Below, one piece after another: positions 3,112-36,464 of a stretch of 64,000 bases of DNA (position 1 is its first letter; every line of letters starts with the position of its first letter). The position numbers were made by a program, and so were the translations under genes. The stretch spans positions 434,001-498,000 of the forward strand of contig NZ_JRMH01000002.1 in NCBI RefSeq assembly GCF_000803315.1. The letters run 5' to 3'. The DNA comes from Pectobacterium actinidiae. Lineage in GTDB: Bacteria; Pseudomonadota; Gammaproteobacteria; Enterobacterales; Enterobacteriaceae. The notes beneath the pieces are model-generated. The model was not told where the DNA came from and ran no database searches. It was given only the letters and a program-made list of their open reading frames with translations.

Positions 3112-3117
3112 CGCACC

Positions 3118-15814: not shown

Positions 15815-17608
15815 TTAATACCCTATCGCTGCCCCGGCCGGGCGGCGGATATCATTTGCACCGTACAGGTAACCTTCACGCACTTTGCCGGATACTGCCG
15901 AGTCATTGCCTGAATCCGCTGGCGTGACGCCCGCTGCGCCCGGTAAACCGACCAGAATCAGCTCCGCTGCGCCCCAAGGCGTCTGTTCCACCATCTTGTA
16001 GCCGCGCTGCTTCAGCAGGTTCAGCGTATCGGCAGATAGCCCACGCTGTTCATAATACACCTCATCCGGTAGCCACTGATGATGGATACGTGGTGCGTCC
16101 ACCGCTTCCTGCGGCGCCATGCCGTGGTCAATAATATTCAGCGCCGTTTGCAGCGTGATGGTGATAATGCGCGAACCACCGGGTGAACCGAGCACCATGA
16201 ACACTTTACCGTCTTTCGTCACCAGCGACGGGCTCATGGACGAAAGTGGGCGCTTACCGGGGGCGATCGAATTACGCTCCCCTTGCACCAAACCGTACAA
16301 GTTTTTCTCGCCCACTTTAACGGTAAAATCATCCATTTCGTTGTTGAGGAAAAAGCCCGTACCCGGCGCAATCACCACCGAACCAAAACGTCCGTTGACG
16401 GTATACGTGGTGGACACCGCATTGCCCTGATTATCCACGATGGAGTAGTGCGTCGTTTCTGGTCGCTCGTGCGGACCGATCCCCGGCTGTACGTTTTTGG
16501 ACGGCGTCGCGTTCTCCGGTTCGATTTGTTTGCGAATTTCAGCAGCGTAATCCTTGCTCAACAGGCGCTCGACGGGGTTGCTCACAAACGCCGGGTCGCC
16601 GAGGTAGGTATTGCGATCCATGTAAGCGTGACGCATCGCTTCCGTCAGCACATGCACGGTGGCCGCCGAGTTAAAGCCTGTCGATTTAATGTCGTAACCT
16701 TCGACAATATTGAGGATTTCACACATCGTGACGCCACCGGAGCTGGGCGGTGGCGAAGAGACAAATTGATAACCGCGATAGTTACAGGTTATCGGTGCCG
16801 TTTCGGTAATGCGGTAATTGGCAAAATCAGCCGCTGTCAGCATTCCGCCGCCCTGCTTCGCCGCTTTCTCCACCGTCTGTGGGATCGTACCCTTATAGAA
16901 GGCATCCGGTCCTTTAGCGGCGATCGCCGCCAGCGTATTCGCCAGATCGGTTTGCACCAGCTTATCGCCGGGCTGTAACGCACTACCGTCAGGACGCAGG
17001 AAAATGCGCGCCGCCTCAGGATCGGCTTTGAAGCGCTTGACGGTGGTGTCCAGAATATCGGTGTCTGCCCGCGTAAGCTCAAAGCCTTCACGCGCCAGTT
17101 TAATCGCCGGTGCCATCACCTGCTCGCGCGTCAATTTGCCGTATTTTTGCAGTGCGGTATCCAGCCCCAGCACCGTTCCCGGTACGCCAGCGGCCAGATA
17201 GCCGTACAGGCTCGCGTCTTTTTTCACGCTCCCATCAGCGTTCAGATACATGTCGGCGCTGGCCGCCGCTGGTGCGGTTTCACGGAAATTGATAAAGGTG
17301 TCTTTTCCATCGGCCAGATGCAGCGTCATAAACCCACCGCCGCCGATATTGCCACAACAGGGGTTCACCACCGCCTGTGCATAGCCCACGGCCACGGCAG
17401 CATCAATCGCATTCCCGCCCATCTTCATGATATCGACGCCAATCTGTGAAGCCAGATACTGCGAGCTGACCACCATGCCGTTTTTCGCTTCCACCGCAGG
17501 AGCCGACGCTGCCTGTACCGTTCCACTCACCAGCAGCGTCGCCACACTCAGTGACAACAGCCATTTCCCCGATGCCGTACTTCCCAATATTGTATTTCTT
17601 ATCCTCAT
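15815..17608 (-). CDS. ggt: Gamma-glutamyltranspeptidase
   Basis: A 597-aa periplasmic enzyme that hydrolyses or transfers the gamma-glutamyl group of glutathione and related peptides. The signal peptide ends around VQAAS. The conserved N-terminal GGNAIDAAVA and GGGFMTLH motifs are present. The autoprocessing and catalytic threonine is the first Thr of TTHYS (about residue 385), which separates large and small subunits. The glycine motif PPPSSGGV and the SMSPSLV segment are intact. The gene has its own transcription unit, convergent with the phospho-lyase gene. Confidence 0.94.
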   Translation of the reverse strand: MRIRNTILGSTASGKWLLSLSVATLLVSGTVQAASAPAVEAKNGMVVSSQYLASQIGVDIMKMGGNAIDAAVAVGYAQAVVNPCCGNIGGGGFMTLHLADGKDTFINFRETAPAAASADMYLNADGSVKKDASLYGYLAAGVPGTVLGLDTALQKYGKLTREQVMAPAIKLAREGFELTRADTDILDTTVKRFKADPEAARIFLRPDGSALQPGDKLVQTDLANTLAAIAAKGPDAFYKGTIPQTVEKAAKQGGGMLTAADFANYRITETAPITCNYRGYQFVSSPPPSSGGVTMCEILNIVEGYDIKSTGFNSAATVHVLTEAMRHAYMDRNTYLGDPAFVSNPVERLLSKDYAAEIRKQIEPENATPSKNVQPGIGPHERPETTHYSIVDNQGNAVSTTYTVNGRFGSVVIAPGTGFFLNNEMDDFTVKVGEKNLYGLVQGERNSIAPGKRPLSSMSPSLVTKDGKVFMVLGSPGGSRIITITLQTALNIIDHGMAPQEAVDAPRIHHQWLPDEVYYEQRGLSADTLNLLKQRGYKMVEQTPWGAAELILVGLPGAAGVTPADSGNDSAVSGKVREGYLYGANDIRRPAGAAIGY

Positions 17609-22850: not shown

Positions 22851-22907
22851 GCATTGAGCCATGGCCCACGCCATGCCTGAGTGTGGATGACAGCATCAGG
22901 AGGACGG

Positions 22908-24761
22908 ATGGCAAACAGTACAGGATTACAGTTCACCGTTAAGGTCGGCGCATTGCCTGCATCAACCTTTTCCGTAGTGGATTTTCAGCTCAGCGAGGCG
23001 CTTAACCAGCCGTTTGCCCTGTCGCTGAATCTGGCCAGCCCCTTACCGGGGATCGATTTTGGTGCTGTTCTCGACCAGCCCTGCGAACTCCTGGTGTGGT
23101 ACGAAGGCGAACTCCAAAGACGAGTGAGCGGTATTGTCAGCGCGTTCGCACAGGGTGACACCGGCTTTCGCCGCACGCGTTATCAGGCGGAAATCCGTCC
23201 GGCGCTGTGGCGTTTGGGGCTACGCACCAACGCCCGCATCTTTCAGGCACAGAAGCCAGAGGCAATTATCGGCGCACTGCTAGAAGAAGCAGGAATCACC
23301 GACTATGCCTTTGCGCTGCGTAACGAACACGCGGTGCGAGAATACTGCGTGCAGTACCGTGAAAGCGATTTAGCCTTTATTACCCGACTGGCCGCCGAAG
23401 AAGGCCTATTCTTCTTCCATGAGTTTGAGGAAGGCAAACACCGTGTCGTCTTTGCCGACGATGCAGGCGCGTTGGCAAAAGGACCTGAGCTGTTTTTCAA
23501 CCTGGCGACACAGGGGCTGAGTGAAGGCGCATACGTCCACCGTTTCCGCTATGCCGAGGCGGTGAGTACTGCCGAGGTGGCGCTAAAGGATTACAGCTTC
23601 AAGACGCCAGCTTATGGCCTGCTGCACCAGAAGATAAGCGGTGAACTGGAACACCAGCGCGAAAGCTATCAGCACTTCGACTACCCCGGCCGTTTTAAAC
23701 AAGATCCAAGCGGCAAGGCATTTACCGGCTATCGACTGGACGCGCTGCGAGCGGGGGCGATGACCGGATCGGGCGAATCCAATGCTGCTGAACTGATGCC
23801 GGGCAGCAGTTTTACCTTAACCGAACACCCCAATCTGGCACTCAATATCGCCTGGCAACTGGTTGCCATCACCCACAGCGGGCAGCAGCCGCAGGCGCTG
23901 GAAGAAGAAAGCGGCGGCGAACCGACCACCTACAGCAACAGCTTCGAGGTCGTGAAGGCCAGCACCACCTGGCGTGCTGATCTGCCGTACAAGCCGATGG
24001 TAGACGGTCCACAAATCGCCACCGTCGTCGGCCCGGCGGGTGAAGAGATCTACTGCGACCAATACGGCCGGGTAAAATTACAATTCCCGTGGGACCGCTA
24101 CGGCGCGAGCGATGACCAGAGCTCCTGCTGGGTTCGCGTCAGCCAAGGTTGGGCCGGTGGTCAATACGGCCTGATCGCCATCCCACGCATAGGCCATGAA
24201 GTCATTGTGAGTTTCCTCGAAGGCGACCCAGACCAACCGATCGTGACGGGCAGAACCTTTCACGCCACCAATCCATCGCCCTACCCGCTTCCTGCTAACA
24301 AGACGCGCACCTCAATCCGCACATCAACCCACAAAGGCGCAGGGTTCAACGAACTGCGCTTTGAGGATCAGGCCGGTCAGGAAGAAGTGTTTATCCATGC
24401 TCAGAAAGACATGAACACCGTGGTGCTGAATAACCGCAGTACATCGGTGAATGTGGATCACAACGAAAACATTGGCCGCGATCAGACGGTCGTCGTGCAG
24501 CAGAACCAAACGGTTTCCGTCATTGCCGATCAGATTACCGAGATCCAGGGGGAGCAAACGGTGGTGGTGAAGAAAAACCGGAGCACCGTCGTGGAAGACA
24601 ACGAAACGCTAAGGGTAACCAACGATATCTTTATCCACGCCGAAGATGGCAGCATTCAGATTGGTACGGGTGCGGGCTATATCTCAATCAAGCACAGCGG
24701 GGATATTGAGATCGTCGGGAATAACCTGACGCTGAACGGCACCCGTATCGATTTGAATTAA
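22908..24761 (+). CDS. vgrG: Type VI secretion spike protein VgrG
   Basis: VgrG (617 aa) trimerises as the puncturing spike on the Hcp tube. The start MANSTGLQF at 22908 has AGGAGG upstream. Family motifs include [53 protein letters not shown] and [19 protein letters not shown]. The C-terminus is the short gp5-like repeat stalk ending NGTRIDLN. It has no C-terminal effector extension. It is followed closely by eagR and rhs, whose PAAR domain should cap this spike. Confidence 0.96.
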
Positions 24762-24769
24762 GGATGACT

Positions 24770-25177
24770 ATGTATCAGATGAATGAAGGGACGCTGGCTA
24801 TCCCCGCTGATTGGCGTGATGAATCACTCCATGTTTTTGTTCTGCCGGGAGATGCCATCAATTTGGTTGTCAACCGTACCCCAATTGACTTCGGTCTGAC
24901 AGCAGAGACGGTTTATCAGCAGACGTTAGGCCAGTTTGCAGCACACCTGAAAGGGTATGAAGAGCGCGGCATTTGGACATTGACGCTGGATGGGCAACCC
25001 GCACACGGCCTGGAATATACCTGGCGGTCGCCGGAAGGGCCGATGCATCAGGTTGTCGTGATGCAGGTGCGCGGTGAGTTATTGATGACGTTTACCGTAA
25101 CCGTAGCAGGCGAGCTCAGTGCGGAGCAGAAGACAGCAATGCTGGCGGTGGTCGAGACATTTAAAGCTGCCACCTGA
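24770..25177 (+). CDS. EagR-type (DcrB/DUF1795) chaperone for the Rhs effector
   Basis: A 135-aa DUF1795 protein. Start 24770 (MYQMNEGTLAIP) is preferred because AAGGA lies 5 nt upstream; another ATG is 6 bp earlier. EagR chaperones bind the N-terminal transmembrane helices of prePAAR Rhs effectors and load them on VgrG. Visible family traits are the LNVVN-like strand (INLVVNRTPID) and the acidic DWRDESLHVF start. Its place between vgrG and an rhs with N-terminal hydrophobic helices fits this role. Confidence 0.88.
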   Translation: MYQMNEGTLAIPADWRDESLHVFVLPGDAINLVVNRTPIDFGLTAETVYQQTLGQFAAHLKGYEERGIWTLTLDGQPAHGLEYTWRSPEGPMHQVVVMQVRGELLMTFTVTVAGELSAEQKTAMLAVVETFKAAT

Positions 25178-25188
25178 AAGGAGTCATC

Positions 25189-28100
25189 ATGCTGAGTGAC
25201 ATTCTGAACCGTGTTGCCCGCGTCGGTGCCATGCACGCAGGCAAAGGCCCGACGCCGCCTGCTGGTCGTCCTCAACCGGGCCAGGGAAAACCCCCGACAT
25301 CACCGGGCAAAACCATCAAGCACAAAAGCTTTCTCGGCGCGCTGGCTGGAGCGATCGCAGGAGCGGTTGTGGCAGCGGTAGCCTTTGCCGCCGCTGCGGC
25401 AGTCGCAGGAGCCATTGCCGTCGCCGTTGTCGGAACGGGTGGCATGGGGGCGGCACTGGTTGTCGGGGCAGTCAAACTGGCGGTGGGATTTGGTGCCGTC
25501 AGCCTGCTGGGGGGGTTAATTAGTAGCGTCTCCAGCAAAGTTTCCGCCATGGTAGACAGCGGATCCCCGCCGTTTGGGCCGGTTTCTTCAGGCTCAGATA
25601 CGGTGTTTGCGGAGAAGCAGAAGATTTCCCGCGCTGAAGTTGACACGGTCGCCTGTACCAAACACAACTCGCCTCAGTTGATTGCGCAAGGAAGTGAAAC
25701 TGTCTACGTCAATGGATCACCGGCCGCACGTATCGACGATAAAACCGTCTGTGGCGCCACCATCAAGGAAGGAGCATCCACCGTCTTTTTTGGATCCGGT
25801 CAGCAAACCTGTCTGGAGATTAGTGACGAATTCAGTTGGTGGGAAAAAGCGCTACTGATCGCGGTAGAGTTTCTGGTTCCGCCCAGCCGGGGCATGTTCA
25901 AAGGACTCGGCAAGCTGTTTACACGTGGTCCCACCGCGGTGCTCAAAGGCATCCGCATGGGTGCGTTGAGAACAGCAGTAGGGCTACGGAGAGCGGTTCG
26001 ATGTGCCAGCAAAGGATTTAAAAATAACAAAGGTTTGGCACGCTTTAAGGAAGCGACCCGGGGTTTTCTAAAAGATCCGGTCTACATTCCCAGCGGGGAT
26101 GTGATCGAGATGCGTCAGGATATTGAGCTTGGGCAAACTCTCCCTCTGCTCTTTGAACGCACTTACCGCTCCACCGCTACCCATGACGGCCTGCTGGGAC
26201 ACGGCTGGTATGACACCTGGAGCGAAACGGCACAGGTCAGCCGCGATGGCCTGAATACCCACGTCGTCATCACACTGGCGCAGGGATACGACATCGATTT
26301 CACCTTCCATCAGGATGTGCAGTCGGTATTTTGTCCGCTCTATCCCGCTTTTACTCTGTACCGGCGGGCAAAGGGCTTTAGCCTATGGGATCGTGACAGC
26401 CTCACCTGGCGTGAATTCGATGTGCCTCAGGGCGATCGGCTACTTCTGTCTTCGATACATGACCCGCACGACAACCGCATTACCCTGATCCGCGATCCAA
26501 AAGGCTATCTGCGCAAGGTACGCCACAGTGATGGTATCGAACTGCTGCTGGTGTGGCGAGGCGAGTATCTGCACCAGATACAGAGTATTGATACCGGGCA
26601 GAAAACCCTGCTGGCTGAATACCGGCAGGATGAACAGGGCCGACTGGTCGAGGCCGATGCTGCCCATGCCTATCATCTGCTCTACGACTACGACAAAGAA
26701 AACCGACTCACGCGCTGGCATGACAACGACCAGACCTGGGCGAGTTACGACTATGATCATCAGGGTCGTTGCATCTACACCACCTGTGCCGACGGCTATC
26801 TGACCGCGCATTTTGAGTATCTCGACGATCGCGTAGTCATGACCGACGGATTAGGTCAGCGCAGCGAATTTGGCTTCAATCACCTGCACCTGATGAGCTG
26901 GGAAAAATCCCCGTTAGGGCACGTCACCCGCTACGATTACGACGACCACGGCAACCTGCTGCGTGAGATTTCCCCAGCAGGCCGGGTGATTGAGTTCACC
27001 TATCTGGACGACAGTGGACTGGTGAGCGCATTCACCGACGGCAGCGGTCATGCCTGGGCCTATGACTACGACGACGCGCAGCGGTTATGCGGTATCACCG
27101 ATCCGCTGGGGCGCATCTGGCAATGGGCGTTCGATGAGGCTGGCAATCCGGAGAAACTCACGGGGCCGGATACCCGCGAAGTACGATTTACCTGGAACCG
27201 CCACGGCCTTCTGACGCAGGTGAGCGATCAGGCGGGCGAGGTTCAGGCACGGCTGCGTTACGATCACCGCCAACGGTTGCTAAGTGCCAGCGATGCGCTG
27301 GGGCGTACCCAGCAGTTGCGCTATGACCAGCAGGACAGAGTCGTGCAGTGGCAGCGGCCGGACGGCGCGCAATACCGGCTGGGCTATCGCCGTGCGAGCT
27401 GGAAACTGCCGGAGCAACTGATACGCCCCGATGAGAAAGAGGAAAAGCGTCAGTACGACAAGCATAACAATCTGCTGAGCTATGTGGACGGCAACGGGGC
27501 ACTGTGGCGCCAGAGCTACGGCTCCTTTGACCTGCTCACCTCGCGGACGGATGCACAAGATCGCACCTGGCGTTACGAGTACGACAAAGAGAGCCAGCAG
27601 TTGGTCGCCGTTATCGCCCCGGACGGCAGTCGCTGGCAATGGTGGCTGGATGCCGACGCGCGGGTTATCCGCGAACGGGATATGGCGGGCACCGACACCC
27701 ACTACAGCTATGACGAAGACGGCAACTGCATCGCCATCCGCAATGCCGAAGGCGAAATCCGCCACTTCCTGTATGACGGACGCGGGCTGCTCATCAAAGA
27801 AACCGCACCGGACGATACCCTTCATTATCGCTATGACGCCGCAGGCAGGCTAGTCGAAGTCACCTCCGCAACCAGTCATATCCAACTGGAGTATGACCTC
27901 CGTGACCGGGTGGTGCGGGAGTGGCTGAACGGCACCCTGCTTACCCGGCAGTTTGATGATACCGCACGCACTGTGGCACGCACGCTGGCCTGGGAAGACC
28001 AGAGCGATGATGCCCTGATCAGCACCTTTGCTTACAGCGCCGCGGGTGAACTGCAACAGGTGCAGTTGCCGGACGGCGCGGAGCTCACCCTTGCCCATGA

Positions 28101-29544
28101 TGCCGCCGGACGGGAATCTTCCCGTTCAGGCGGGGCGTTCGCCCAGCACCGGGAATATGACGTGATGGGCTGGCTGACGCGCGAGATGAGCGGTCAGCAG
28201 CAGGATGGTCGTCTGCATGCCACACAGACAAGGGAATACCTGTACGACGGCGTGGGCAATCTGGCTGGCGTTCGCCATAACCGTGAAACCCGAGGCTATC
28301 GTCTGGACGCCACCGGGCGCGTGCTGTCCGTCCTGAGCGGTGGCGCAGGCCGCGCAGTCGAAACTGACGAAGCCTATCGCTATACCCGCAACGGCCTGCC
28401 GCAGGATACCTCCCGACTCACCGAATGGCAGGCGGGCAGGCTGACTCAGCACGACGATACTCACTATCAGTACGACAAAGCCGGACGGCTGATACGCAAG
28501 CAGGTGGTGCAGCCAGGCTATCGCCCCCAGGTCTGGCACTACCGCTGGGACAGCCGTAACCAGCTCCGGGTTGTCGACACCCCGGCGGGCGAACGCTGGT
28601 TCTACCGCTACGACCCGTTCGGGCGGCGCACCAGCAAACGCTGTGAGCAGACGCTGGATGATATCCGCTACCTGTGGGACGGCGACCAGATAGCCGAGGT
28701 GCGGCATTATCGCAACGGTGAACGCGTTGCCCGCCGCCACTGGGTACACAACGGCTGGGAGTTGCTGGTTCAGCAGCGGCAGAATAACCACGGACGCTGG
28801 GAAACCGATTTTGTCACCAGCAGCCAGAACGGTGAACCTCAGGCCCTGTACCGACCCGACGGCACCCTACGCTGGCAGGCACCGAAAAGCACCCTCTGGG
28901 GGCAGCGACCAGGCTCTGCTGAAGACCCTGCCGACCCGGGCCTTGCCTTTGCCGGACAGTACCGTGACACAGAAAGCGGGCTATGTTATAACCGTTTTCG
29001 GTACTACGACCCTGCCGGTGGATGTTATGTCTCGCCTGACCCGATAGGGGTGTTGGGGGGTGATAACAATTACGGGTATGTACAGAATCCGCTTACATGG
29101 ATCGATCCGTTTGGGTTGGCTGGCTGTAATATACGATACGGTGAACTAGATCACCTAGGTCGCCCAACTGGTGTAAAAGCTCGCTTAGATTCAAGCTATA
29201 TAAATACAGGTACGCACGCTAATCCTGCTATCCAGCCACCTGGATTTATTACAGGAGCAGGTTCTAATCGTGCTCGTGGACATTTGTTGGGGCGGCAATT
29301 GGGCGGTTCGGGCGATGATGTGCGTAATTTGGTTACTATTCAACATCGTCCAGTGAATACCCCAGATATGAGCAGTATCGAAGGACGTATAAGAAAAGCG
29401 TTAGAACGAGGGGAAATAGTTGATGTATCGGTAACGCCTATCTATAAAGGTCCTTCTAGAATACCAGCGGGTATAACAATGAATGCTCAAGGTAGTGGCG
29501 GCTTCTTTGAAAGCGTTACTCTTCTTAATCCTCCAGGAATGTAA
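25189..29544 (+). CDS. rhs: Rhs-family T6SS effector with PAAR domain and C-terminal nuclease tip
   Basis: A 1,451-aa Rhs toxin. Order: N-terminal prePAAR segment with Ala/Val/Gly-rich hydrophobic helices (about residues 48-120), PAAR domain (about 125-215, SGSDTVFAEKQ, GSETVYVNGSPAARIDD), YD/Rhs repeats (about 300-1270), then the core end SPDPIGVLGG and IDPFGLAG. The variable tip begins at C1313 (29125) and is 139 aa. The tip carries RARGHLLGRQLGGSGDDVRNLV, the signature of DNA/RNA non-specific endonucleases (NS_2 type), with likely catalytic His1365. The tip is AT-richer than the core, typical of exchangeable tips. The adjacent SUKH protein is the expected immunity partner. Confidence 0.94.
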   Translation: MLSDILNRVARVGAMHAGKGPTPPAGRPQPGQGKPPTSPGKTIKHKSFLGALAGAIAGAVVAAVAFAAAAAVAGAIAVAVVGTGGMGAALVVGAVKLAVGFGAVSLLGGLISSVSSKVSAMVDSGSPPFGPVSSGSDTVFAEKQKISRAEVDTVACTKHNSPQLIAQGSETVYVNGSPAARIDDKTVCGATIKEGASTVFFGSGQQTCLEISDEFSWWEKALLIAVEFLVPPSRGMFKGLGKLFTRGPTAVLKGIRMGALRTAVGLRRAVRCASKGFKNNKGLARFKEATRGFLKDPVYIPSGDVIEMRQDIELGQTLPLLFERTYRSTATHDGLLGHGWYDTWSETAQVSRDGLNTHVVITLAQGYDIDFTFHQDVQSVFCPLYPAFTLYRRAKGFSLWDRDSLTWREFDVPQGDRLLLSSIHDPHDNRITLIRDPKGYLRKVRHSDGIELLLVWRGEYLHQIQSIDTGQKTLLAEYRQDEQGRLVEADAAHAYHLLYDYDKENRLTRWHDNDQTWASYDYDHQGRCIYTTCADGYLTAHFEYLDDRVVMTDGLGQRSEFGFNHLHLMSWEKSPLGHVTRYDYDDHGNLLREISPAGRVIEFTYLDDSGLVSAFTDGSGHAWAYDYDDAQRLCGITDPLGRIWQWAFDEAGNPEKLTGPDTREVRFTWNRHGLLTQVSDQAGEVQARLRYDHRQRLLSASDALGRTQQLRYDQQDRVVQWQRPDGAQYRLGYRRASWKLPEQLIRPDEKEEKRQYDKHNNLLSYVDGNGALWRQSYGSFDLLTSRTDAQDRTWRYEYDKESQQLVAVIAPDGSRWQWWLDADARVIRERDMAGTDTHYSYDEDGNCIAIRNAEGEIRHFLYDGRGLLIKETAPDDTLHYRYDAAGRLVEVTSATSHIQLEYDLRDRVVREWLNGTLLTRQFDDTARTVARTLAWEDQSDDALISTFAYSAAGELQQVQLPDGAELTLAHDAAGRESSRSGGAFAQHREYDVMGWLTREMSGQQQDGRLHATQTREYLYDGVGNLAGVRHNRETRGYRLDATGRVLSVLSGGAGRAVETDEAYRYTRNGLPQDTSRLTEWQAGRLTQHDDTHYQYDKAGRLIRKQVVQPGYRPQVWHYRWDSRNQLRVVDTPAGERWFYRYDPFGRRTSKRCEQTLDDIRYLWDGDQIAEVRHYRNGERVARRHWVHNGWELLVQQRQNNHGRWETDFVTSSQNGEPQALYRPDGTLRWQAPKSTLWGQRPGSAEDPADPGLAFAGQYRDTESGLCYNRFRYYDPAGGCYVSPDPIGVLGGDNNYGYVQNPLTWIDPFGLAGCNIRYGELDHLGRPTGVKARLDSSYINTGTHANPAIQPPGFITGAGSNRARGHLLGRQLGGSGDDVRNLVTIQHRPVNTPDMSSIEGRIRKALERGEIVDVSVTPIYKGPSRIPAGITMNAQGSGGFFESVTLLNPPGM

Positions 29545-29547
29545 ATC

Positions 29548-30078
29548 ATGACCATGCCTAAATTAGATAGTATTTTAGTCCCACCGGTTTCTCCCAATGA
29601 GTCTGGTAGCGGTGATGCTTGGCCTTCTATAGATGAAGGCATTACATTTCCTAATGACTATGTTGAGTTTATCAGTAGCTATGGTACGGGACGAATTGCT
29701 AATTTTATTGCGATATTTAGTCCATTTACTCAAAATAATGATCTTAATTTTTTTGAGCAAAAAAAATTAATTATTGAAGACTTTGATTACCTTAATAATG
29801 AAGATCCAGACTATTTTAAATATAACCTTTATCCGGAAAAAAACGGACTTTTACCAATAGGTGTAACGGATAATGGTGATTATATTTTTTGGGTTGTTTC
29901 CGATCTAAAAAATAGTGATGCATGGGGAACGGCAATAGTTGCGTCTAGATCACCTGATATAGAATATTTTGATGAAAACATAACATCTTTATTGTCTGGT
30001 GTGTTATTAAAAAAAATAAAACCAGATTCGTTACCTAATAACTTCCCTCCTGATAATATCATTTTTGAGAAATATTAG
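29548..30078 (+). CDS. SUKH (SMI1/KNR4)-family immunity protein for the Rhs nuclease
   Basis: A 176-aa cytoplasmic protein starting 3 bp after rhs. It shows SUKH features: FPNDYVEFISSYGTG near the start and LLPIGVTDNGDYIFWVV in the middle. SUKH proteins are the commonest immunity partners of polymorphic nuclease toxins, including an Rhs nuclease of Dickeya. It is strongly AT-rich like the toxin tip, so tip and immunity gene form one exchange unit. Neutralisation of this tip is inferred from adjacency. Confidence 0.85.
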   Translation: MTMPKLDSILVPPVSPNESGSGDAWPSIDEGITFPNDYVEFISSYGTGRIANFIAIFSPFTQNNDLNFFEQKKLIIEDFDYLNNEDPDYFKYNLYPEKNGLLPIGVTDNGDYIFWVVSDLKNSDAWGTAIVASRSPDIEYFDENITSLLSGVLLKKIKPDSLPNNFPPDNIIFEKY

Positions 30079-30082
30079 AAAT

Positions 30083-30120
30083 AAGCCGGAAGCGATCCCA
30101 CGATCCTTCCGGCTTTATTT
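30083..30120 (+). terminator. Cassette-end hairpin, copy 1
   Basis: AAGCCGGAAG (30083-30092) and CTTCCGGCTT (30106-30115) form a perfect stem followed by TATTTTA, just after the SUKH immunity gene. Near-identical hairpins follow the second and fourth cassettes. Confidence 0.85.
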
Positions 30121-30145
30121 TACCTGTTGTTTATTCCGTGCGGGG

Positions 30146-30370
30146 TCAGAGATTAATCTCCGTCTCAATCAGTATCCTTCCCCGCTCCACAGTCACCATT
30201 ATCGGCATCCCGGTCATAAACCCTGATTCTTCCAGCCAGCGGCCTTTAAGGTTAATCGCTGACGGCGGGTTGGGCCTGCCGTTTTGCGGGGCGTATCCCA
30301 CCGTGTAGTAACGTGCTGTTTTGGTTGCTTTATTAACGGTGACGTCTGACTTAGAATGTGCCTTAGCCAT
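30146..30370 (-). CDS. SymE-like protein, copy 1
   Basis: A 74-aa protein of the SymE toxin family; E. coli SymE is an SOS-induced, AbrB-fold protein repressed by the antisense RNA SymR. Start MAKAHSKSD is preferred over an upstream in-frame start. Motifs: YYTVGYAPQNGRPNPPSAINLKGRWLEESGF, and VERGRILIETE at the end (shown in part). It points towards the rhs/immunity cassette end, from which it is separated by the hairpin. This is the only complete-looking symE of the four copies and fragments in the island. Whether it is toxic or has a SymR-like RNA is unknown. Confidence 0.8.
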   Translation of the reverse strand: MAKAHSKSDVTVNKATKTARYYTVGYAPQNGRPNPPSAINLKGRWLEESGFMTGMPIMVTVERGRILIETEINL

Positions 30371-30443
30371 AGTAACTACCTCGTTTAGTTGCTTGTGGTG
30401 AGCGGCGTGGGTGTGCTCGTAACACATCCGCGTCGCGTTCGTT

Positions 30444-30800
30444 TTAATCCTTCTCTTTGCCCATCGGCTTCGTCACTCGTGCCATAGTCTGGGAAACCTG
30501 ATTCTTCACAATCATCGCATCCAGCACGGCTTTAGCCACTTCCTGCTCTTCAGCAGGCATGGCAGCGACGGCTTCAAACCTCAGCTTCAAATCATCTTCC
30601 GGCTCACATTCACCGGGTTCAAACAGCAGAAAATCAGATGAAACATGCAGCACAATGGTGAGCTTCTTTAAGGCCTCGGCGGTAGGCTGTAAGCTACCGG
30701 CTTCGTAGCGTTTAATCTGTTGTACATGGATACCGGTGGCGTCAGAGAGGCTTTGTTGTGTCAAACCCGTGATCTGCATCCCGGTCATAAAGCCCAACAC
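30444..30800 (-). CDS. Xre-type HTH regulator whose N-terminus is fused to a symE remnant
   Basis: A 118-aa frame. From LTQQSLSDATGIHVQQIKRYEAGSLQP onwards it is an ordinary Cro/C1-type helix-turn-helix protein with the usual enterobacterial C-terminal region (EDDLKLRFEAVAAMPAEEQ, AVLDAMIVK). The first ~8 residues (LGFMTGM) and the DNA upstream come from a symE gene, so the regulator has lost its own start. Translation could begin at GTG 30800 or ATG 30788, the latter with GGAGG 11 nt upstream supplied by symE DNA. It may still bind DNA, because the HTH is nearly whole, or may be a remnant. Confidence 0.65.
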   Translation of the reverse strand: MLGFMTGMQITGLTQQSLSDATGIHVQQIKRYEAGSLQPTAEALKKLTIVLHVSSDFLLFEPGECEPEDDLKLRFEAVAAMPAEEQEVAKAVLDAMIVKNQVSQTMARVTKPMGKEKD

Positions 30801-30914
30801 CTCCAGCCAGCGGCCTTTAAGGTTAATCGCTGACGGCGAGTTTGGTCTGCCATTCTGCGGGAGTATCTCACCGTGTATTAACGTTATATTTTAGTTGTTT
30901 TATTTACACTTAAG
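30777..30914 (-). pseudogene. symE fragment, copy 2 (frameshifted, fused to xre)
   Basis: DNA closely matching the N-terminal two thirds of symE copy 1 (compare 30209-30350). One base is missing around the GY(A/S)PQNG codons, which shifts the frame, and the gene is cut at MTGM where the Xre coding sequence begins. At its other end it abuts rhs fragment 2 at 30917. Confidence 0.75.
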
Positions 30915-30916
30915 TC

Positions 30917-31277
30917 GCGCCAGAGCTACGGCTCCTTTGACCTGCTCACCTCGCGGACGGATGCACAAGATCGCACTTGGCGTTACGAGTACGACAAAGA
31001 GAGCCAGCAGTTGGTCGCCGTTATCGCCCCGGATGGTAGCCGCTGGCAATGGTGGCTGGATGCCGACGCGCGGGTTATCCGCGAACGGGATATGGCGGGC
31101 ACCGACACCCACTACAGCTATGACGAAGACGGCAACTGCATCGCCATCCGCAATGCCGAAGGCGAAATCCGCCACTTCCTGTATGACGGACGCGGGCTGC
31201 TCATCAAAGAAACCGCACCGGACGGGAATCTTCCCGTTCAGGCGGGGCGTTCGCCCAGCACCGCGAATATGACGTGA
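30917..31277 (+). pseudogene. Rhs core fragment 2a, frameshifted by a deletion
   Basis: Nearly identical to the main rhs gene from 27507 (RQSYGSFDLLT onwards) up to KETAPDG. It then shifts frame because 298 bp present in the main gene (between two CCGGACG heptamers at 27808 and 28106) are missing. Translation would end at the TGA at 31275-31277. It has no Rhs N-terminus, PAAR or start region, so it is a displaced piece. The remainder of the same fragment continues in another frame from 31274. Confidence 0.85.
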
Positions 31278-32578
31278 TGGGCTGGCTGACGCGCGAGATG
31301 AGCGGTCAGCAGCAGGATGGTCGCCTGCATGCCACACAGACAAGAGAATACCTGTACGACGGCGTGGGCAATCTGGCTGGCGTTCGCCATAACCGTGAAA
31401 CCCGAGGCTATCGTCTGGACGCCACCGGGCGCGTGCTGTCCGTCCTGAGCGGTGGCGCAGGCCGCGCGGTCGAAACTGACGAAGCCTATCGCTATACCCG
31501 CAACGGCCTGCCGCAGGATACCGCCCGACTCACCGAATGGCAGGCGGGCAGGCTGACTCAGCACGACAATACTCACTATCAGTACGACAAAGCCGGACGG
31601 CTGATACGCAAGCAGGTGGTTCAGCCGGGCTACCGTCCTCAAGTCTGGCACTACCGCTGGGACAGCCGTAACCAGCTCAGAGTCGTTGACACCCCGACGG
31701 GCGAACGCTGGTTCTACCGCTACGACCCGTTCGGACGACGTACCGGCAAACGCTGTGAGCAGACGCAGGATGATATCCGCTACCTGTGGGACGGCGACCA
31801 GATAGCCGAGGTGCGGCATTATCGCAACGGTGAACGCGTTGCCCGCCGCCACTGGGTACACAACGGCTGGGAGTTGCTGGTTCAGCAGCGGCAGAATACT
31901 GACGGACGCTGGGAAATCGATTTTGTCACCAGCAGCCAGAACGGTGAACCTCAGGCCCTGTACCGGCCCGACGGCACCCTGCGCTGGCAGGCACCGAAAA
32001 GCACCCTCTGGGGGCAGCGCCCAGGCTCCGCGGAAGACCCTGCCGACCCGGGCCTTGCCTTTGCCGGACAGTACCGTGACACCGAAAGCGGGCTATGTTA
32101 TAACCGTTTTCGGTACTACGACCCAGCCGGTGGATGTTATGTCTCGCCGGACCCGATAGGGGTGTTGGGGGGGGAAAATAATTACGCTTACGCACCTAAT
32201 CCTATTAGTTGGATCGACCCGCTAGGTCTCGCTAAATGTCCATTGCCATCTAAAGTCAATTTAACGCGTGATGGAGTACAGCACGTTAAGGATCGACATG
32301 TGGGTAATAAAATTGGCTGGGACCATAAAAGTAAATGGACGATAGGAAATGCTGAATGGAAATCAACGGTAAGAAATGTATTCCGTAATCCTGACCGAAT
32401 TACGCGGGATGGGTCTAGGCTTGTTTATGAAAAAACATTGCCAAGAACTGTCGGGCGAACACCTGAAGGCGAGGCTTTGACAAAGGTTAGGGTTGTTGTT
32501 GAATCTAATGGTGATTTGGTTACTGCATTCCCACAAAGTGTATTCAGGGATGTAAAAATAACTGACTTAATATTGTAA
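31274..32578 (+). CDS. Orphan Rhs C-terminus with a putative BECR-type RNase tip
   Basis: A 434-residue open frame (GTG 31274 or ATG 31277) that continues rhs fragment 2 after its 298-bp deletion. It runs from MGWLTREMSG through the Rhs core end SPDPIGVLGG and IDPLGLA and then a new tip of ~113 aa. The tip has HVKDRHVGNKIGW, KSKW, a GRTPEG segment and LVTAFP near its end. This arrangement of a His-rich start, a basic centre and a closing TAFP recalls barnase/EndoU/colicin-E5-like (BECR) RNases; this is a pattern match by eye. Without PAAR or a start region it cannot be delivered alone, but it can recombine with the main rhs through >800 bp of near identity. Confidence 0.75.
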   Translation: MMGWLTREMSGQQQDGRLHATQTREYLYDGVGNLAGVRHNRETRGYRLDATGRVLSVLSGGAGRAVETDEAYRYTRNGLPQDTARLTEWQAGRLTQHDNTHYQYDKAGRLIRKQVVQPGYRPQVWHYRWDSRNQLRVVDTPTGERWFYRYDPFGRRTGKRCEQTQDDIRYLWDGDQIAEVRHYRNGERVARRHWVHNGWELLVQQRQNTDGRWEIDFVTSSQNGEPQALYRPDGTLRWQAPKSTLWGQRPGSAEDPADPGLAFAGQYRDTESGLCYNRFRYYDPAGGCYVSPDPIGVLGGENNYAYAPNPISWIDPLGLAKCPLPSKVNLTRDGVQHVKDRHVGNKIGWDHKSKWTIGNAEWKSTVRNVFRNPDRITRDGSRLVYEKTLPRTVGRTPEGEALTKVRVVVESNGDLVTAFPQSVFRDVKITDLIL

Positions 32579-32586
32579 GGGAAGGT

Positions 32587-32880
32587 ATGTCTTTGGATTT
32601 TCAAATAAAATTTGACGATGAGATATTTAATCTTGACATTAGTGAATCTTTACATTCTTCAATATTTTCTAATTCAACAAGATGGAGTAGTTTTAAACAA
32701 CTAAGGAAAATAAAAGATTATTATCGCACCGACTGTTTATTTAAGGGTGACGATGCTATTTTGTTTATAAATGAATTTATTGAAGTCTGTGAAAATAATT
32801 CATTGGAAGAAATAAAAATAGAAAAAATAAAATCGTTGCTAAGTAAAAAAATAATCTATATCAGAGTTAGTGGTGACTAA
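32587..32880 (+). CDS. Putative immunity protein of orphan cassette 2
   Basis: A 97-aa acidic, AT-rich small protein, 8 bp after the orphan tip, with an AAGG ribosome site before ATG. I do not recognise its family. Position directly behind a toxin tip, size and composition make it the likely immunity protein for that tip. It has no signal peptide or membrane segment, which fits protection against a cytoplasmic nuclease. Confidence 0.65.
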   Translation: MSLDFQIKFDDEIFNLDISESLHSSIFSNSTRWSSFKQLRKIKDYYRTDCLFKGDDAILFINEFIEVCENNSLEEIKIEKIKSLLSKKIIYIRVSGD

Positions 32881-32886
32881 TGAAAC

Positions 32887-32926
32887 AAGCCGGAAGCGAT
32901 CTCAACGATCCTTCCGGCTTTTTATT
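32887..32926 (+). terminator. Cassette-end hairpin, copy 2
   Basis: AAGCCGGAAG (32887-32896) and CTTCCGGCTT (32911-32920), with the stem followed by TTTATTATC. Arms are identical to copy 1 at 30083; only the loop differs (CGATCTCAACGATC against CGATCCCACGATC). Confidence 0.85.
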
Positions 32927-32956
32927 ATCTGCTGCTCAGTTGCGGTTGTTTACTGA

Positions 32957-33217
32957 CTAATTATCCCCCACCACATCCAGCCTACCGGGAAAGCGCTTAA
33001 GCCAGCAGGTAACGGCGTATTCATCGAACGGCGCAATGCTGAGGGCTTGCAGGTCTTGCCAGAGTGCGCGGATATCCTGTGTAGTAATCACAATGCAGCC
33101 GGGCATGATGCGAAGCCTGAGCGGTTGCCCGGTACTGAACCCGGCTTCCTTCAGCCATTGCCCAGCGATGTTGATAGCCGGGGTGTCGTGGTTGCCCTTG
33201 ATGGGTCGATAGCCCAC
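32957..33217 (-). pseudogene. symE-like gene, copy 3, 5'-truncated by an rhs fragment
   Basis: An 86-residue SymE-like frame (GYRPIKGNHDTPAINIAGQW, then LKEAGFSTGQPLRL and MPGCIVITTQD), with a C-terminal extension longer than in copy 1. Reading upstream, FTRVGYRP still fits SymE, but then the sequence runs antisense into rhs fragment 3 at 33251 and the natural start is gone. The only nearby start is the internal GTG at 33217. It is a different symE lineage from copies 1, 2 and 4, judging by its sequence. Confidence 0.65.
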
Positions 33218-33250
33218 ACGGGTAAAGCGTTCGGCCTGAGAGATTTTAAA

Positions 33251-34036
33251 TGGGAAACCGATTTTGTCACCAGCAGCCAGAACGATGAACCTCAGGCCCT
33301 GTACCAGCCCGACGGCACCCTGTGCTGGCAGGCACCGAAAAGCACCCTCTGGGGGCAGTGGCCAAGCTCCGCGGAAGACCCTGCCGACCCGGGCCTTGCC
33401 TTTGCCGGACAGTACCGTGACACCGAAAGCGGGCTATGTTATAACCGTTTTCGGTACTACGACCCAGCCGGTGGATGTTATGTCTCGCCTGACCCGATAG
33501 GGGTGTTGGGGGGAGAGAGTAACTACGGGTATGTACAGAATCCCAATGAATTAATAGATCCATTAGGGTTAGCGGGATGCAGTAAGTACCTAAAAGGATG
33601 GGGAAGAGGAAAAGCAGGATTTGAGAACTTCTGGAATAACTCGACACAGAAGCAATTCATGAAAGCATGGAGTAATCCAAAGTTTAAAGAAAATATCATG
33701 GATCGACTTCGTAAAGCCGGTGGTTCAAAAGGCGGGGGGTTTCATGAATGGTTACCTGTCTCTCAAGCTGACAAATTTAAACAAATGGGTGTTTCGTTTA
33801 ACGACTATATGAAGTGGAGAACACCGACTGGCCAGGTTAAGTTCTTGGACGATCTTGGTGTTATGGGGACGCATACTCTGCCACATAGCGGTGGTGTTAC
33901 GACCCAGTCGTCATTAGCCCACAGTGAACTTATTAAAATTGCTGGTAAAGCCACGGATATAAATAGTTATCTAAATGCTGTGAGAAAATGGTCTAGTAAA
34001 CGGCTTCCATTTGGTCTATTTGATCTTCCATTTTAA
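33251..34036 (+). CDS. Orphan Rhs C-terminus 3 with HNH/EndoVII-like nuclease tip (5'-truncated)
   Basis: From 33251 the DNA matches the last part of the Rhs core (WETDFVTSSQN to SPDPIGVLGG, then IDPLGLAG). A new tip of ~150 residues follows. The tip has KAGGSKGGGFHEWLPVSQ, DKFKQMG, RTPTG, then GTHTLPH and AHSELI. The HEW motif followed by spaced histidines resembles the HNH/EndoVII toxins with an EHHH pattern (Tox-HNH-EHHH). The frame is open upstream to an ATG at 33047 inside antisense symE DNA, so there is no natural start. It is a silent tip reservoir unless recombined into the main rhs. Confidence 0.75.
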   Translation, partial: WETDFVTSSQNDEPQALYQPDGTLCWQAPKSTLWGQWPSSAEDPADPGLAFAGQYRDTESGLCYNRFRYYDPAGGCYVSPDPIGVLGGESNYGYVQNPNELIDPLGLAGCSKYLKGWGRGKAGFENFWNNSTQKQFMKAWSNPKFKENIMDRLRKAGGSKGGGFHEWLPVSQADKFKQMGVSFNDYMKWRTPTGQVKFLDDLGVMGTHTLPHSGGVTTQSSLAHSELIKIAGKATDINSYLNAVRKWSSKRLPFGLFDLPF

Positions 34037-34053
34037 TTATAGGTGTTAAGATA

Positions 34054-34470
34054 ATGAGTAAGGAAAAATACGCTATTTGGTATTCTGTTTCGACGAATTA
34101 TGAAGCTATCATGGATAACTTTTCTATCAATGATAATGAATGTAAATTTGAAAGAGATTTTCATTTAAAAAACAGACTCATAGACTACGACCATGCAATT
34201 ATTATATGGTATGGAAAAGAACAAGGAGAACTAGGTAACTTATCTAGAAAAAAAAATATAAATCTTGAAGAGGGATTTGATTTTATAACATCAAAAGTAT
34301 CTCTCCTTTTGGAGAAGAAAAATGTTGATAAGATAAGCTATCTTTTTGCTTTGCCTGATTTTGAATATAAAGGTAAAGTAAAATCTAATGATACACTTCG
34401 CTTCGGCGGCCATGTAACTTGTGAGCGGCCAAATAGTAGTTGGCTTGACGAAATACTGAGCGATATGTAA
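34054..34470 (+). CDS. Putative immunity protein of orphan cassette 3
   Basis: A 138-aa AT-rich protein beginning 17 bp after the tip. It has alternating hydrophobic strands (HAIIIWYGKE, KISYLFALPDFEYKG), suggesting a small alpha/beta cytoplasmic protein. It loosely recalls Imm22-type immunity proteins, but I would not insist. Adjacency to an HNH-like tip is the main evidence for an immunity role. Confidence 0.65.
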   Translation: MSKEKYAIWYSVSTNYEAIMDNFSINDNECKFERDFHLKNRLIDYDHAIIIWYGKEQGELGNLSRKKNINLEEGFDFITSKVSLLLEKKNVDKISYLFALPDFEYKGKVKSNDTLRFGGHVTCERPNSSWLDEILSDM

Positions 34471-34484
34471 GAGTATTCATAGCA

Positions 34485-34512
34485 GGAAGATCCTCTTTGG
34501 ATCTTCCAAATT
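34485..34512 (+). terminator. Terminator hairpin after cassette 3
   Basis: GGAAGATCC (34485-34493) and GGATCTTCC (34499-34507) form a perfect 9-bp stem with loop TCTTT, followed by AAATTTT. Its sequence is unlike the hairpins behind the other cassettes. Confidence 0.75.
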
Positions 34513-34634
34513 TTCGGTGTCAGAAAATGTAAAAAGTATAACTGCCACACAAGATGAGATTAGTGCATTGAAGAAACCCATCATGTACACTAAATTTTCT
34601 TGCAATGATTCCTAGCCACTAAAATATGCAGTAA

Positions 34635-34889
34635 AGTTACGCTATCAATTCATTCCTCGATAAAATCATCGAAGATTATTATCTTGATGCGCCTGACTAT
34701 ATTCGAGGACGAAGTGTCTATGACGTTTCTGGTGATTTGATAAGTATATTTTTGCATAAATATCAATTACCTGCTAGCTATTTTATTCATCCTAAAACAG
34801 GCCAAAGAATAGTTGAGATCAATAAGAATCTCGCGGTAATATCTGCGCGAGAAGGTTGGTTAAATGAATTTTTCACTAAAAAATATTGA
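34635..34889 (+). pseudogene. Remnant of a fourth toxin tip (no Rhs core left)
   Basis: An 82-codon open stretch without a start that ends at TGA 34887. It reads as the C-terminal part of a small protein (FLDKIIEDYYLDAPDYIRG, HPKTGQRIVEINKNLAVIS, REGWLNEFFTKKY). It is preceded by an in-frame stop at 34632 and by no Rhs core. Its stop overlaps the start of the following immunity-like remnant by 26 bp, the usual toxin/immunity spacing. I do not recognise the toxin family. Confidence 0.5.
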
Positions 34890-35270
34890 ATTTCCATAAG
34901 TTATAGAAAGTGTAGCTGAACCAGCATTTTATTTAGGAAACTATTTGAGTGTACATTTTTTAGGTATCGATAGCCGAGAAAAAGAAATTAACAGTCACCT
35001 AAAATGCAACGAGTCAGACATGCCTGATGAAGTTTATAATAATGCTGGGTATAGAATAGCTAACTTTTACTTTAAAATTTTATACTTCTTTTATTGCACT
35101 GGCAAAACTCTGGTTTATCTAATTATCTTAATGGCACTGAACTTCATCTTGGTGTCTATGGAGAGATTAATCAGAATAATGAGTTAGTAGGATATTTTTT
35201 CATTGGAAATAATTTACTTTTTTCAGTAAAAGCGAAAATATACTTGATGTCTATTGATAATAATTTATAA
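34864..35270 (+). pseudogene. Decayed immunity gene of cassette 4
   Basis: Begins ATG at 34864 (MNFSLKNIEFP) but meets TAA at codon 12. It reads on as VIESVAEPAFYLGNYLSVHF and NNAGYRIANFYFK, then needs a frameshift near 35070-35105 to continue as SGLSNYLNGTELHLGVYGE and LLFSVKAKIYLMSIDNNL to TAA 35268. One nonsense and one frameshift lesion make it non-functional. An alternative short frame starting inside (34945-35187) is an artefact of the unshifted reading. Confidence 0.6.
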
Positions 35271-35277
35271 ATAAAAA

Positions 35278-35318
35278 ATCCGGAAGCGATCCTAACGATG
35301 CTTCCGGATTTATTTTAT
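35278..35318 (+). terminator. Cassette-end hairpin, copy 3
   Basis: ATCCGGAAGC (35278-35287) and GCTTCCGGAT (35300-35309) followed by TTATTTTAT. It is the same element as at 30083 and 32887, with compensating changes in the stem, and its downstream flank matches the flank of copy 1. Confidence 0.8.
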
Positions 35319-35344
35319 CTGCTGTTATTCCGTGATGTGCGACG

Positions 35345-35391
35345 TCAGAGATTCATCTCCGTCTCAATCACCAGTCTCCCGCGCTCAACGG
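35345..35391 (-). pseudogene. symE fragment, copy 4 (last 15 codons)
   Basis: On the minus strand this reads VERGRLVIETEMNL and stop, matching the C-terminus of symE copy 1 (VERGRILIETEINL). Upstream the match ends abruptly at the dppF terminator region, marking the right edge of the type VI island. Confidence 0.75.
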
Positions 35392-35453: not shown

Positions 35454-36464
35454 CTAGGCGACAGCGGTGCCCTGTTCATCCTGATCGACAGCGAAGCAGG
35501 CGACCTGCTGCTCACCGTAGGTTTTCAGCTGTGGCTGGAACTGGGTGCAGGTGCTGAAGCAGCGCTGACAGCGGGCATTGAACGCACAGCCCGGTGGTGG
35601 ATTCAGTGGGCTAGGTAGCTCACCTGTCAGCTTGATGCGCTCGCGGCGTAAATCCGGATTCAGGCGCGGCGTCGCGGAAAGTAACGCCTGCGTATACGGG
35701 TGGCGCGGATTATTGAAAATGGCGTCTTTACTGCCCTTCTCCACACAGCGCCCCAGATACATCACCATCACTTCATCAGCGATATGTTCGACAACGGACA
35801 GATCGTGCGAGATGAAGACGTAAGACAGCCCCAGATCCTGCTGCAAGTCCATCATCAGATTCAGCACCTGTGCGCGAACCGACACGTCTAGCGCCGAAAC
35901 AGGTTCGTCGGCAATCACCACGTCAGGGTCCAGCATCAACCCACGAGCGATAGCGATACGCTGGCGTTGGCCGCCGGAGAACATATGCGGGTAGCGATCA
36001 TAATGCTCCGTTTTCAACCCCACTTTCGCCATCATCGCCAGCGCTTTTTCACGACGCTCAGCTTTTGACAGCTCAGTGTTGATCTGGAGCGGTTCCTCCA
36101 GGATCTGGCCGACTTTCTTACGTGGATTGAGCGATCCATAAGGATTCTGGAAAACGATCTGGATCTTCTGCCGACGCAGTTTCTGCGCTTGCGGATCGTG
36201 CTTCAGCAGATCCTGCCCCTGATAGTACAGTTCACCATCCGATGGGGTTTCAATCATCGTCAGCAGGCGACCCAGCGTGGACTTTCCACAGCCAGATTCT
36301 CCTACCACCGCTAGCGTCTTACCACGCTCCAGCGTAAAGGAAACGCCGTCCAACGCTTTCACCATCCGCTCTGGCGCGAAAAAGCCCTTTTTCACCGGGT
36401 AGTGTTTTTTCAAATCAATCGCATGCAGCAAATACGACTGCGATGTTGCGTTCAGTTCACTCAT
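35454..36464 (-). CDS. dppF: Dipeptide ABC transporter ATP-binding protein DppF
   Basis: A 336-aa ATPase of the dipeptide/heme importer. Walker A is GESGCGKST, the ABC signature [14 protein letters not shown] and Walker [13 protein letters not shown]; the C-terminal oligopeptide/dipeptide extension carries the FeS-like cysteines ([14 protein letters not shown]). It overlaps dppD by 4 bp. It forms the nucleotide-binding heterodimer with DppD under the DppBC permease. Confidence 0.96.

Follow-up and report, generated by a model that had tools for sequence, protein, structure and literature searches.

An rhs array with hairpins and backward symE genes

The window, a 64,000-nucleotide stretch of the Pectobacterium actinidiae genome (contig NZ_JRMH01000002.1, positions 434,001 to 498,000), holds at 22881-35391 an island of vgrG, chaperone and rhs genes that adjoins a dppF-like gene, and the subject of this study is the array of displaced toxin tips and immunity genes behind its full-length rhs gene (Table 1). 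The locus is an orphan array of rhs C-terminal tips (CT) and immunity genes in the accepted sense: downstream of a full-length rhs lie core pieces that end in DPxGL, and each leads into a variable tip with an immunity gene. Within the first of these displaced pieces (30914-32221), part of the core is deleted. An earlier note, made from the letters of this DNA, had proposed that the cassettes travelled as units of rhs end, immunity gene, hairpin and symE, with symE as a recombination partner or an addiction element. Here, the array was compared with loci fetched from other genomes (numbered with the prefix L), some of which carry such tips on putative integrative elements. The names vgrG and dppF, and the Eag-type (DcrB-like) family of the chaperone, are those that we take these genes to bear.

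The three near-identical stems (30086-30112, 32890-32917 and 35280-35307) each stand between immunity-side sequence and symE DNA on the opposite strand, as the note had claimed, with the amendment that hairpin 3 belongs to the decayed fourth cassette (34687-35262) and not to cassette 3. They fold at -20.9 to -23.5 kcal/mol on either strand (z -5.3 to -7.3), and 0 of 200 shuffles was as good in each of the six folds (three hairpins, both strands). T-runs flank the hairpins on both sides, giving the G+C-rich stem and T-run expected of an intrinsic terminator, and each hairpin, lying between convergent genes, probably terminates transcription in both directions; a simple terminator scan of the window did not have the three hairpins among its matches. 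Nine places in the whole genome match the hairpin pattern, eight of them in two rhs loci, a distribution that rules out a dispersed repeat of the repetitive extragenic palindromic (REP) kind, and the ninth (window 53333) pairs in its outer bases only. The hairpin is likewise ruled out as part of SymR, which covers the opposite end of symE.

Across the genus, the exact hairpin pattern was found in 18 of 24 genomes (own included) and in 0 of 16 others, and the reversed pattern gave no match in either set; as a control the reversed pattern was also absent from the own genome and 25 genus genomes, and in 119 genomes it gave five strand matches, all in one genome (G085). Thirty of the 50 exact genus matches were fetched with 2.4-3.0 kb of flank: symE was present in 28, an rhs core end in 27 and at least one of the two in 29, a result that does not refute the note's view that hairpin and symE go with rhs loci. 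The exception, L035, has neither within the flank fetched. A looser pattern also matches stray sequences without symE or rhs in other genera, and in L242 (genome G126) the hairpin adjoins rhs core ends, with no symE match in the 3 kb fetched.

All seven PF08845 (SymE) matches in the own genome lie within the two rhs loci, and the two scored in the window reach 77 and 65 bits against a family cut-off of 29. All nine rhs core-end matches in the own genome likewise fall in this locus or at C1:3448-3459 kb, where a different rhs core (42-57% identity to the window core over the core end) is accompanied by six further hairpins, five with symE DNA just behind; none was found behind the hairpin near c1r 11217. 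At C1:3446000-3460000 (L008, L009), two cassette pairs agree in their symE-core joints and have lost similar internal parts of the core; the middle of the array holds, by eye, a transposase-like gene pair.

The note had also placed the junctions between old and new rhs modules at symE, and this holds in the window: the two stretches of core homology start at 30914 (rhs nt 2316) and 33251 (nt 3610), in each case right next to symE DNA, which also stands at the joint of the N-truncated helix-turn-helix (HTH) gene with the 30767 fragment and at the joint with the dppF-side flank (35391). Within symE, these joints fall in the 5' half. Displaced core pieces number 55 in the set examined, drawn from loci some of which overlap in one genome; in 32 of them, symE remnants occur no more than 230 nt to the left, as the note had anticipated, and 10 begin at core residue 1554-1556, the site of the element described below, as carriage on units predicts.

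At the same chromosomal site, the dppF-like flank gene was found in 25 of 25 genus genomes. Of the 24 relatives fetched there, five are empty with the flank genes adjacent (L207, L209, L213, L222 and L224), ten hold vgrG-rhs islands, two show part of an island where the contig ends, and in the remaining seven rhs content is absent or of another kind. The window tips are primary at this site in some genomes and displaced in others: CT2 is primary in L203, CT3 is primary in L204 and L210 and displaced in L218, and CT1 is displaced in L204. The CT2 cassette, whose tip gave no NCBIfam match, is 94% identical between the window and L203 until 23 nt past the hairpin, where different symE types take over. 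L212 retains a scar here: a hairpin and truncated symE (16251-16487) stand beside the dpp gene, and the 17 kb fetched gave no rhs match.

Table 1 Features of the rhs island and its right flank (window positions)
Feature	Position	Strand	Basis
vgrG (spike of the type VI secretion system, T6SS), 5' of rhs	22881..24758	+	Open reading frame (ORF); kept with rhs at same site in relatives
Small chaperone gene	24764..25174	+	ORF; kept in islands of relatives
Full-length PAAR-Rhs gene, tip CT1 (Endonuclea_NS_2)	25189..29544	+	Pfam RHS_repeat, PAAR, PF13930
GACCCGATAGGG over DPIG codons of full rhs; joining sequence of tip-carrying units in relatives	29038..29049	+	Read from sequence
Immunity gene 1 (SUKH/SMI1-KNR4)	29548..30078	+	Pfam PF14568, PF09346
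Hairpin 1, probable two-way terminator; left edge of constant block	30083..30115	.	Both-strand folds; homology-block start
symE1, intact	30146..30427	-	PF08845, 77 bits
SymR-like antisense RNA across symE1 start	30365..30439	+	Rfam RF01809, 47 bits, E 1e-6, gathering score 61
RstR-family HTH repressor gene, N-terminus cut, running on into symE antisense	30444..30800	-	NF041951, 105 bits (cut-off 80)
symE fragment without hairpin	30767..30907	-	84-85% identity to symE1
Displaced rhs core piece, nt 2316-2626 joined to 2918-3921	30914..32221	+	Core alignment
GACCCGATAGGG site, tip 2	32150..32161	+	Read from sequence
Displaced tip CT2	32234..32575	+	Primary tip in L203
Immunity gene 2	32587..32880	+	90% identity in L203
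Hairpin 2	32887..32920	.	Folds; cassette common with L203 ends 23 nt past 32890-32917 stem
symE2, different SymE subtype, without 5' end	32957..33250	-	PF08845, 65 bits; alignment
Displaced rhs core piece, nt 3610-3938	33251..33579	+	Core alignment
GACCCGATAGGG site, tip 3	33491..33502	+	Read from sequence
Displaced tip CT3	33572..34036	+	Primary tip in L204 and L210
Immunity gene 3	34054..34470	+	87-97% identity in L204, L210, L218
Decayed fourth tip/immunity cassette	34687..35262	+	87-90% identity to L269 cassette
Hairpin 3	35277..35310	.	Pattern match; folds
symE fragment fused to dppF-side flank, right island border	35337..35391	-	Sequence comparison
Peptide ABC-transporter ATPase gene adjoining island	35454..36464	-	Flank gene found in relatives

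Tip-carrying units in relatives and their ends

In relatives, the tip and immunity gene are the left part of a unit of 5.5-7.9 kb, in the order toxin tip, immunity gene, hairpin, symE (minus strand), repressor (minus), DnaG-like primase (plus), Xer-type tyrosine recombinase (plus) and right end. The primase (969-1095 residues) has a DnaG zinc ribbon and a Toprim domain, with a weak P-loop match in three of four copies, and the recombinase (343-370 residues) matches PF00589 in four of four copies and NF002331 at 573 and 587 bits in two of two (cut-off 371). All parts between two copies of the site were mapped in L272; the units of L265 and L267 map without an HTH match, which is present in L099 from the same genome as L265, and L112 and L274, whose units are of the type found with contact-dependent growth inhibition (CDI) genes, are complete elements with a hairpin type of their own. 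The note's unit is upheld in that its tips move between primary and displaced positions across genomes and the common block mostly starts at the hairpin; it is corrected in that the unit is far larger, with primase and recombinase, and in that the hairpin is probably a joint of cargo and backbone, not an end.

DNA common to different loci mostly begins at the hairpin, irrespective of the preceding immunity gene, and runs through symE and then the HTH gene, in many loci for more than 2 kb further. Among hairpin-spanning pairs, which are not independent of one another, 4,188 of 4,403 have no more than 20 nt in common on the immunity side; of 76 same-immunity pairs, some of them coding matches to the loose pattern, 13 lose homology within 59 nt on the symE side. 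The hairpin is therefore probably the joint between variable cargo and constant backbone, as judged from these alignments. Loci of Xenorhabdus, Edaphovirga and, more loosely, Serratia contain the stem sequence as well; in CDI-type units another hairpin type is present, in which the stem varies and the pairing is kept (by eye). For genera other than Pectobacterium, hairpins were taken from an ungapped finder, which misses the bulged Pectobacterium stem.

The hairpin-symE-HTH stretch of the window is collinear with the left unit parts of L090 and L093 (87-88% identity over 691-696 nt). Homology of the window HTH gene with these two loci stops at 30767-30768, and its PF01381 match begins at profile position 9. 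Only such hairpin-symE(-repressor) stubs of the unit were found in the own genome, and the window holds relics only, not an element with recombinase, primase and right end (for the primase, no search of the whole genome was made).

The setting of symE was surveyed in two sets. In 71 loci picked by likeness to the window symE, and so biased to that type, 46 are rhs loci, in which 424-1654 nt separate the symE 3' end from an rhs end on the other strand, 16 are CDI-like (14 by the VENN string; L131 and L143 by the VENN profile when refetched as L164 and L165), six lie near contig ends and three are neither. With one symE per genus in 52 genera (52 of the 55 symE-positive genomes, leaving out the own genome, G084 and G093), eight lie behind rhs and 22 behind a CdiA VENN profile match, one (L168) is CDI by eye, one has no room and 20 lie elsewhere, so that symE as a universal toxin-cassette gene is too strong a statement. 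Primase and recombinase stand 5' of symE in 19 and 17 of 61 loci with room in the first set, and in 7 and 8 of 49 in the second. Single cases of symE near toxins are on record in Erwinia amylovora, 3' of a T6SS-region toxin (PMC7764402), in a Proteus integrative and conjugative element between cdiI and an orphan (PMC11278526) and in Dickeya (PMC8386352). Two symE of Sodalis sp. (L118, L119) lie away from toxins, that of L119 adjoining genes that resemble a restriction-modification set, and in Serratia silvae (L144) a second, shorter symE-like gene stands beside several symE copies in the same orientation. The Rfam model isrA (RF01385) scores above its gathering score opposite the symE coding sequence in L058 (1527-1655) and L071 (1523-1651), so isrA may be a symE-linked RNA.

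The exact ends of the unit were located from the recombinase genes (34 genes in 24 loci), with a rightward reach of 3 kb. In 27 of the 34, a displaced tip follows, with DPIG or VENN codons 799-2224 nt to the right, and the right end stops exactly at DPIG in Rhs (19) or VENN in CdiA (8). The six bases before DPIG are CCCTAT in 17 cases, TCCTAT in one and CCCGAT in one, followed by the site GAYCCGATAGG; those before VENN are GTTGTT in eight of eight, followed by GTKGAGAATAAC. At 23 core-borne Rhs sites, the preceding six bases vary and are CCCTAT in none. The half-sites CCCTAT/ATAGGG and GTTGTT/AATAAC are inverted around six bases, the second pair with one mismatch, and inverted half-sites around a spacer are usual for tyrosine recombinases. 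In other genera, the recombinase was matched at 1e-45 in 11 of 119 genomes, and six of the 11 matches, examined with 0.9-1.5 kb on the right, show the joint, two of these being genomes already counted. The ends at DPIG and VENN rule out the hairpin as the end of a mobile element. Nor do they support the note's idea of symE as the recombination partner: judged by the alignments, symE is a constant gene of the unit, not the insertion site. Tandem units with recombinase and primase also occur in L158 (G085:C19; 99.96% identity over 5.3 kb), where the edge of the repeat lies in the coding motif GDSKAAKG, possibly a third type of target.

Several observations bear on mobility. Compared from site to site, adjacent units match at 100% identity in L265 (6,705 bp), L267 (6,591) and L110 (7,570), at 99.7% in L272 and at 96.2% in L112; in L271 only the backbone aligns (84%). 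In genome G010, the 6,591-bp unit of L267 is present at 100% identity in a second rhs gene (L268), with another tip behind, although the L268 core is 26% identical to the C-type core and there is no DNA similarity in the 600 nt before the site. Two circular records deposited as plasmids, both typed non-mobilizable and with no replicon named, resemble an excised free form: NZ_CP072857.1 from Lonsdalea populi (11,289 bp) comprises two units, with one exact CCCTATGACCCGATAGG joint and one with a mismatch and 22-27 core residues each, and NZ_CP055112.1 from Shigella flexneri (8,758 bp) has one unit joint with a mismatch. The recombinase had no match among 50,697 phage records, which says nothing on helper phages.

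Related genes were also encountered on plasmids. The CDI-type recombinase matches 160 plasmid records, 142 of them Salmonella plasmids. Among the 26 matches listed, 25 cover about 70% of the query and have no gene annotated there, which probably marks a relic carried by one plasmid lineage. Proteins with 35-45% identity to the element primase are encoded on 13 plasmid records of Leptospira. A Pseudomonas plasmid (L304, NZ_CP090650.1) carries a TpsA2-type gene, then a hypothetical gene, a VbhA-family antitoxin in the place of symE, an HTH gene, a CHC2 protein, XerC and a RelE pair, with a second partial copy behind.

How the array may have arisen

Together, these results suggest that tips were replaced here time and again by integrative elements, each with one toxin tip and its immunity gene as cargo, and that the array is the eroded trace of this history, an account we consider likely. 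On this account, the recombinase would recombine a circular form of the element at the 12-bp sequence over the DPIG codons of rhs, and in a sister group at the VENN codons of cdiA; the incoming tip would thereby continue the reading frame of the resident core, and the previous tip would come to lie behind the element. The hairpin may end both the cargo transcript and the convergent symE transcript, with SymE, the repressor and SymR as a regulated or addictive module of the element. The backbone would then be lost, leaving hairpin, symE and repressor behind each immunity gene, and a symE'|core joint would later arrive on circles or fragments that recombine homologously with the core (probably a circle, through a single crossover) and move the resident tip further back. 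If the incoming circle has such a joint from the outset, the occurrence of one joint before different tips would be accounted for.

Some of the data tell against tip replacement by elements. The displaced tips of the window keep about 440 and about 110 core residues, against 22-30 in tips displaced by units, so the array cannot be the product of insertion at DPIG alone, and a second, homologous-recombination route is needed. Thirteen of the 55 displaced core pieces fit neither a symE remnant nor the element site. No recombinase of the group was found in the own genome (best match 36%), and no right end in the window or the C1 array, in a search that gave 24 matches in the element loci as positive control and one five-mismatch match elsewhere in the window. 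Seven of the 34 recombinase genes have no DPIG or VENN (four at contig ends, one in L275, two in L158), and neither do five of the 11 matches in other genera (L289, L290, L293, L297 and L299), for some of which the fetched flank may not reach far enough. The circular records are assemblies, for which tandem chromosomal copies could be the source, and NZ_CP055112.1 has, besides its unit joint, an ISEc1-family insertion and a core piece of some 177 residues; transfer and excision of units are deduced from sequence.

It is possible, if rather doubtful, that symE with SymR and the HTH repressor serves mainly as an addiction module that retains the array, as the note had offered. Purifying selection acts on SymE (18 intact domains compared in 152 pairs, median dN/dS 0.07), so the protein matters, and an HTH gene stands beside 48 of 119 symE examined, mostly 115-150 nt from the SymE domain. 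The SymR-like RNA sought by the note is predicted at symE1, but below the curated cut-off (Table 1); SymR-like matches occur in 9/20 and 5/20 loci of relatives, three of them above the curated score. In addition, symE is carried in backward orientation in Xanthomonas integron cassettes (PMC12444791). Against retention by addiction, only one of the four symE copies in the window is intact, and E. coli SymE is described as a DNA-binding, nucleoid-condensing protein that inhibits growth when highly expressed (PMC11894785). Regulation of SymE by the repressor and SymR, like a role in addiction, is putative.

Homologous or homology-facilitated illegitimate recombination alone, with hairpin and symE as passengers downstream of the donor gene, is the model in print (PMC2935791, PMC5361080), and it accounts for the long core pieces in the window. 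It also fits the reuse of joints with different tips: the core-774 joint precedes CT2 in the window and CT1 in L204, and is the same in L096 and L204; joints at core 1250 and 1218 each occur twice in the C1 array, at 983 twice in L273, and at 1055 in both L269 and L270. However, such recombination leaves unexplained the exact joints of the right end with DPIG and VENN, the neighbours identical from site to site and the presence of one unit in two very different rhs genes, and as the whole explanation we regard it as improbable. Even less probable is that the hairpin itself, folded as a single strand, is the recombination site, which would explain its conserved sequence. In favour are the reassortment of immunity genes and symE types within 0-59 nt of it and its recurrence in the other genera named above; against it, the units end exactly at DPIG or VENN, T-runs on both sides fit a terminator, and CDI-type units have a different hairpin whose stem varies while its pairing stays.

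Beyond this locus, replacement of tips by integrative elements has a wider form, for and against which we see the chances as evenly balanced: Rhs and CdiA would have one class of integrative element in common, with a C-terminal toxin domain and its immunity gene as sole apparent cargo; the DPxGL and VENN motifs would be DNA attachment sites; and much of the tip diversity in Enterobacterales would come from site-specific, sometimes cross-clade, warhead replacement through circular, self-replicating intermediates. If true, this would account for the onset of variability at DPxGL and VENN and for the backward symE behind so many toxin cassettes, and a single vehicle of delivery would connect Rhs with CDI. 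How unrelated tips are acquired and old ones kept as spares has until now been explained by homologous recombination (PMC2935791); a recombinase, an exact site and apparent circular forms make the question directly testable.

Comparison with known systems

The closest likeness is to the orphan rhs-CT/rhsI and cdiA-CT/cdiI arrays, in which a full gene is followed by displaced tips and immunity genes and tips are primary in one strain and displaced in another (Jackson 2009, PMC2935791; Poole 2011, PMC3150448). These papers propose homologous recombination and circles, and the first names the missing integrase as a gap in that account; here, by contrast, there are a recombinase, a primase, an exact site and one unit in two very different rhs genes. 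In CDI islands, integrase and transposase genes lie among the orphan modules and site-specific recombination has been suggested (PMC4927057), although the passages on this in that paper define no element, site or symE/hairpin. SymE contexts with Cro/cI HTH, DnaG-type primase-helicase, haemagglutinin and RHS proteins were already listed in Kawano 2007 (PMC1891008); that listing covers neither tip cargo nor hairpin, and gives no recombinase, exact site or unit ends. A description of the element, its site or the unit ends was not found in the open-licence literature searched, with preprints and supplements outside that search.

Integrons resemble the array in that the newest cassette stands by a fixed gene, older ones are pushed downstream and a tyrosine recombinase is involved, and symE cassettes are known from them in Xanthomonas (PMC12444791). 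They differ in that here the unit carries its own recombinase, the site lies in coding sequence and the old tip is parted from its core. Integron integrase models scored 115 and 60 bits on L099, below their cut-offs of 265 and 435; attC was not searched. In a shufflon, inversion within the locus, by a tyrosine recombinase acting at sites inside the gene, gives one protein a different C-terminus; here, if the array arose by tip replacement, units would be imported and inserted. Phage satellites and small integrative elements carry a recombinase, a primase and a divergent repressor, and the units are like phage satellites in all three, differing in that their cargo is a toxin tip and that no packaging or structural genes were noticed in them.

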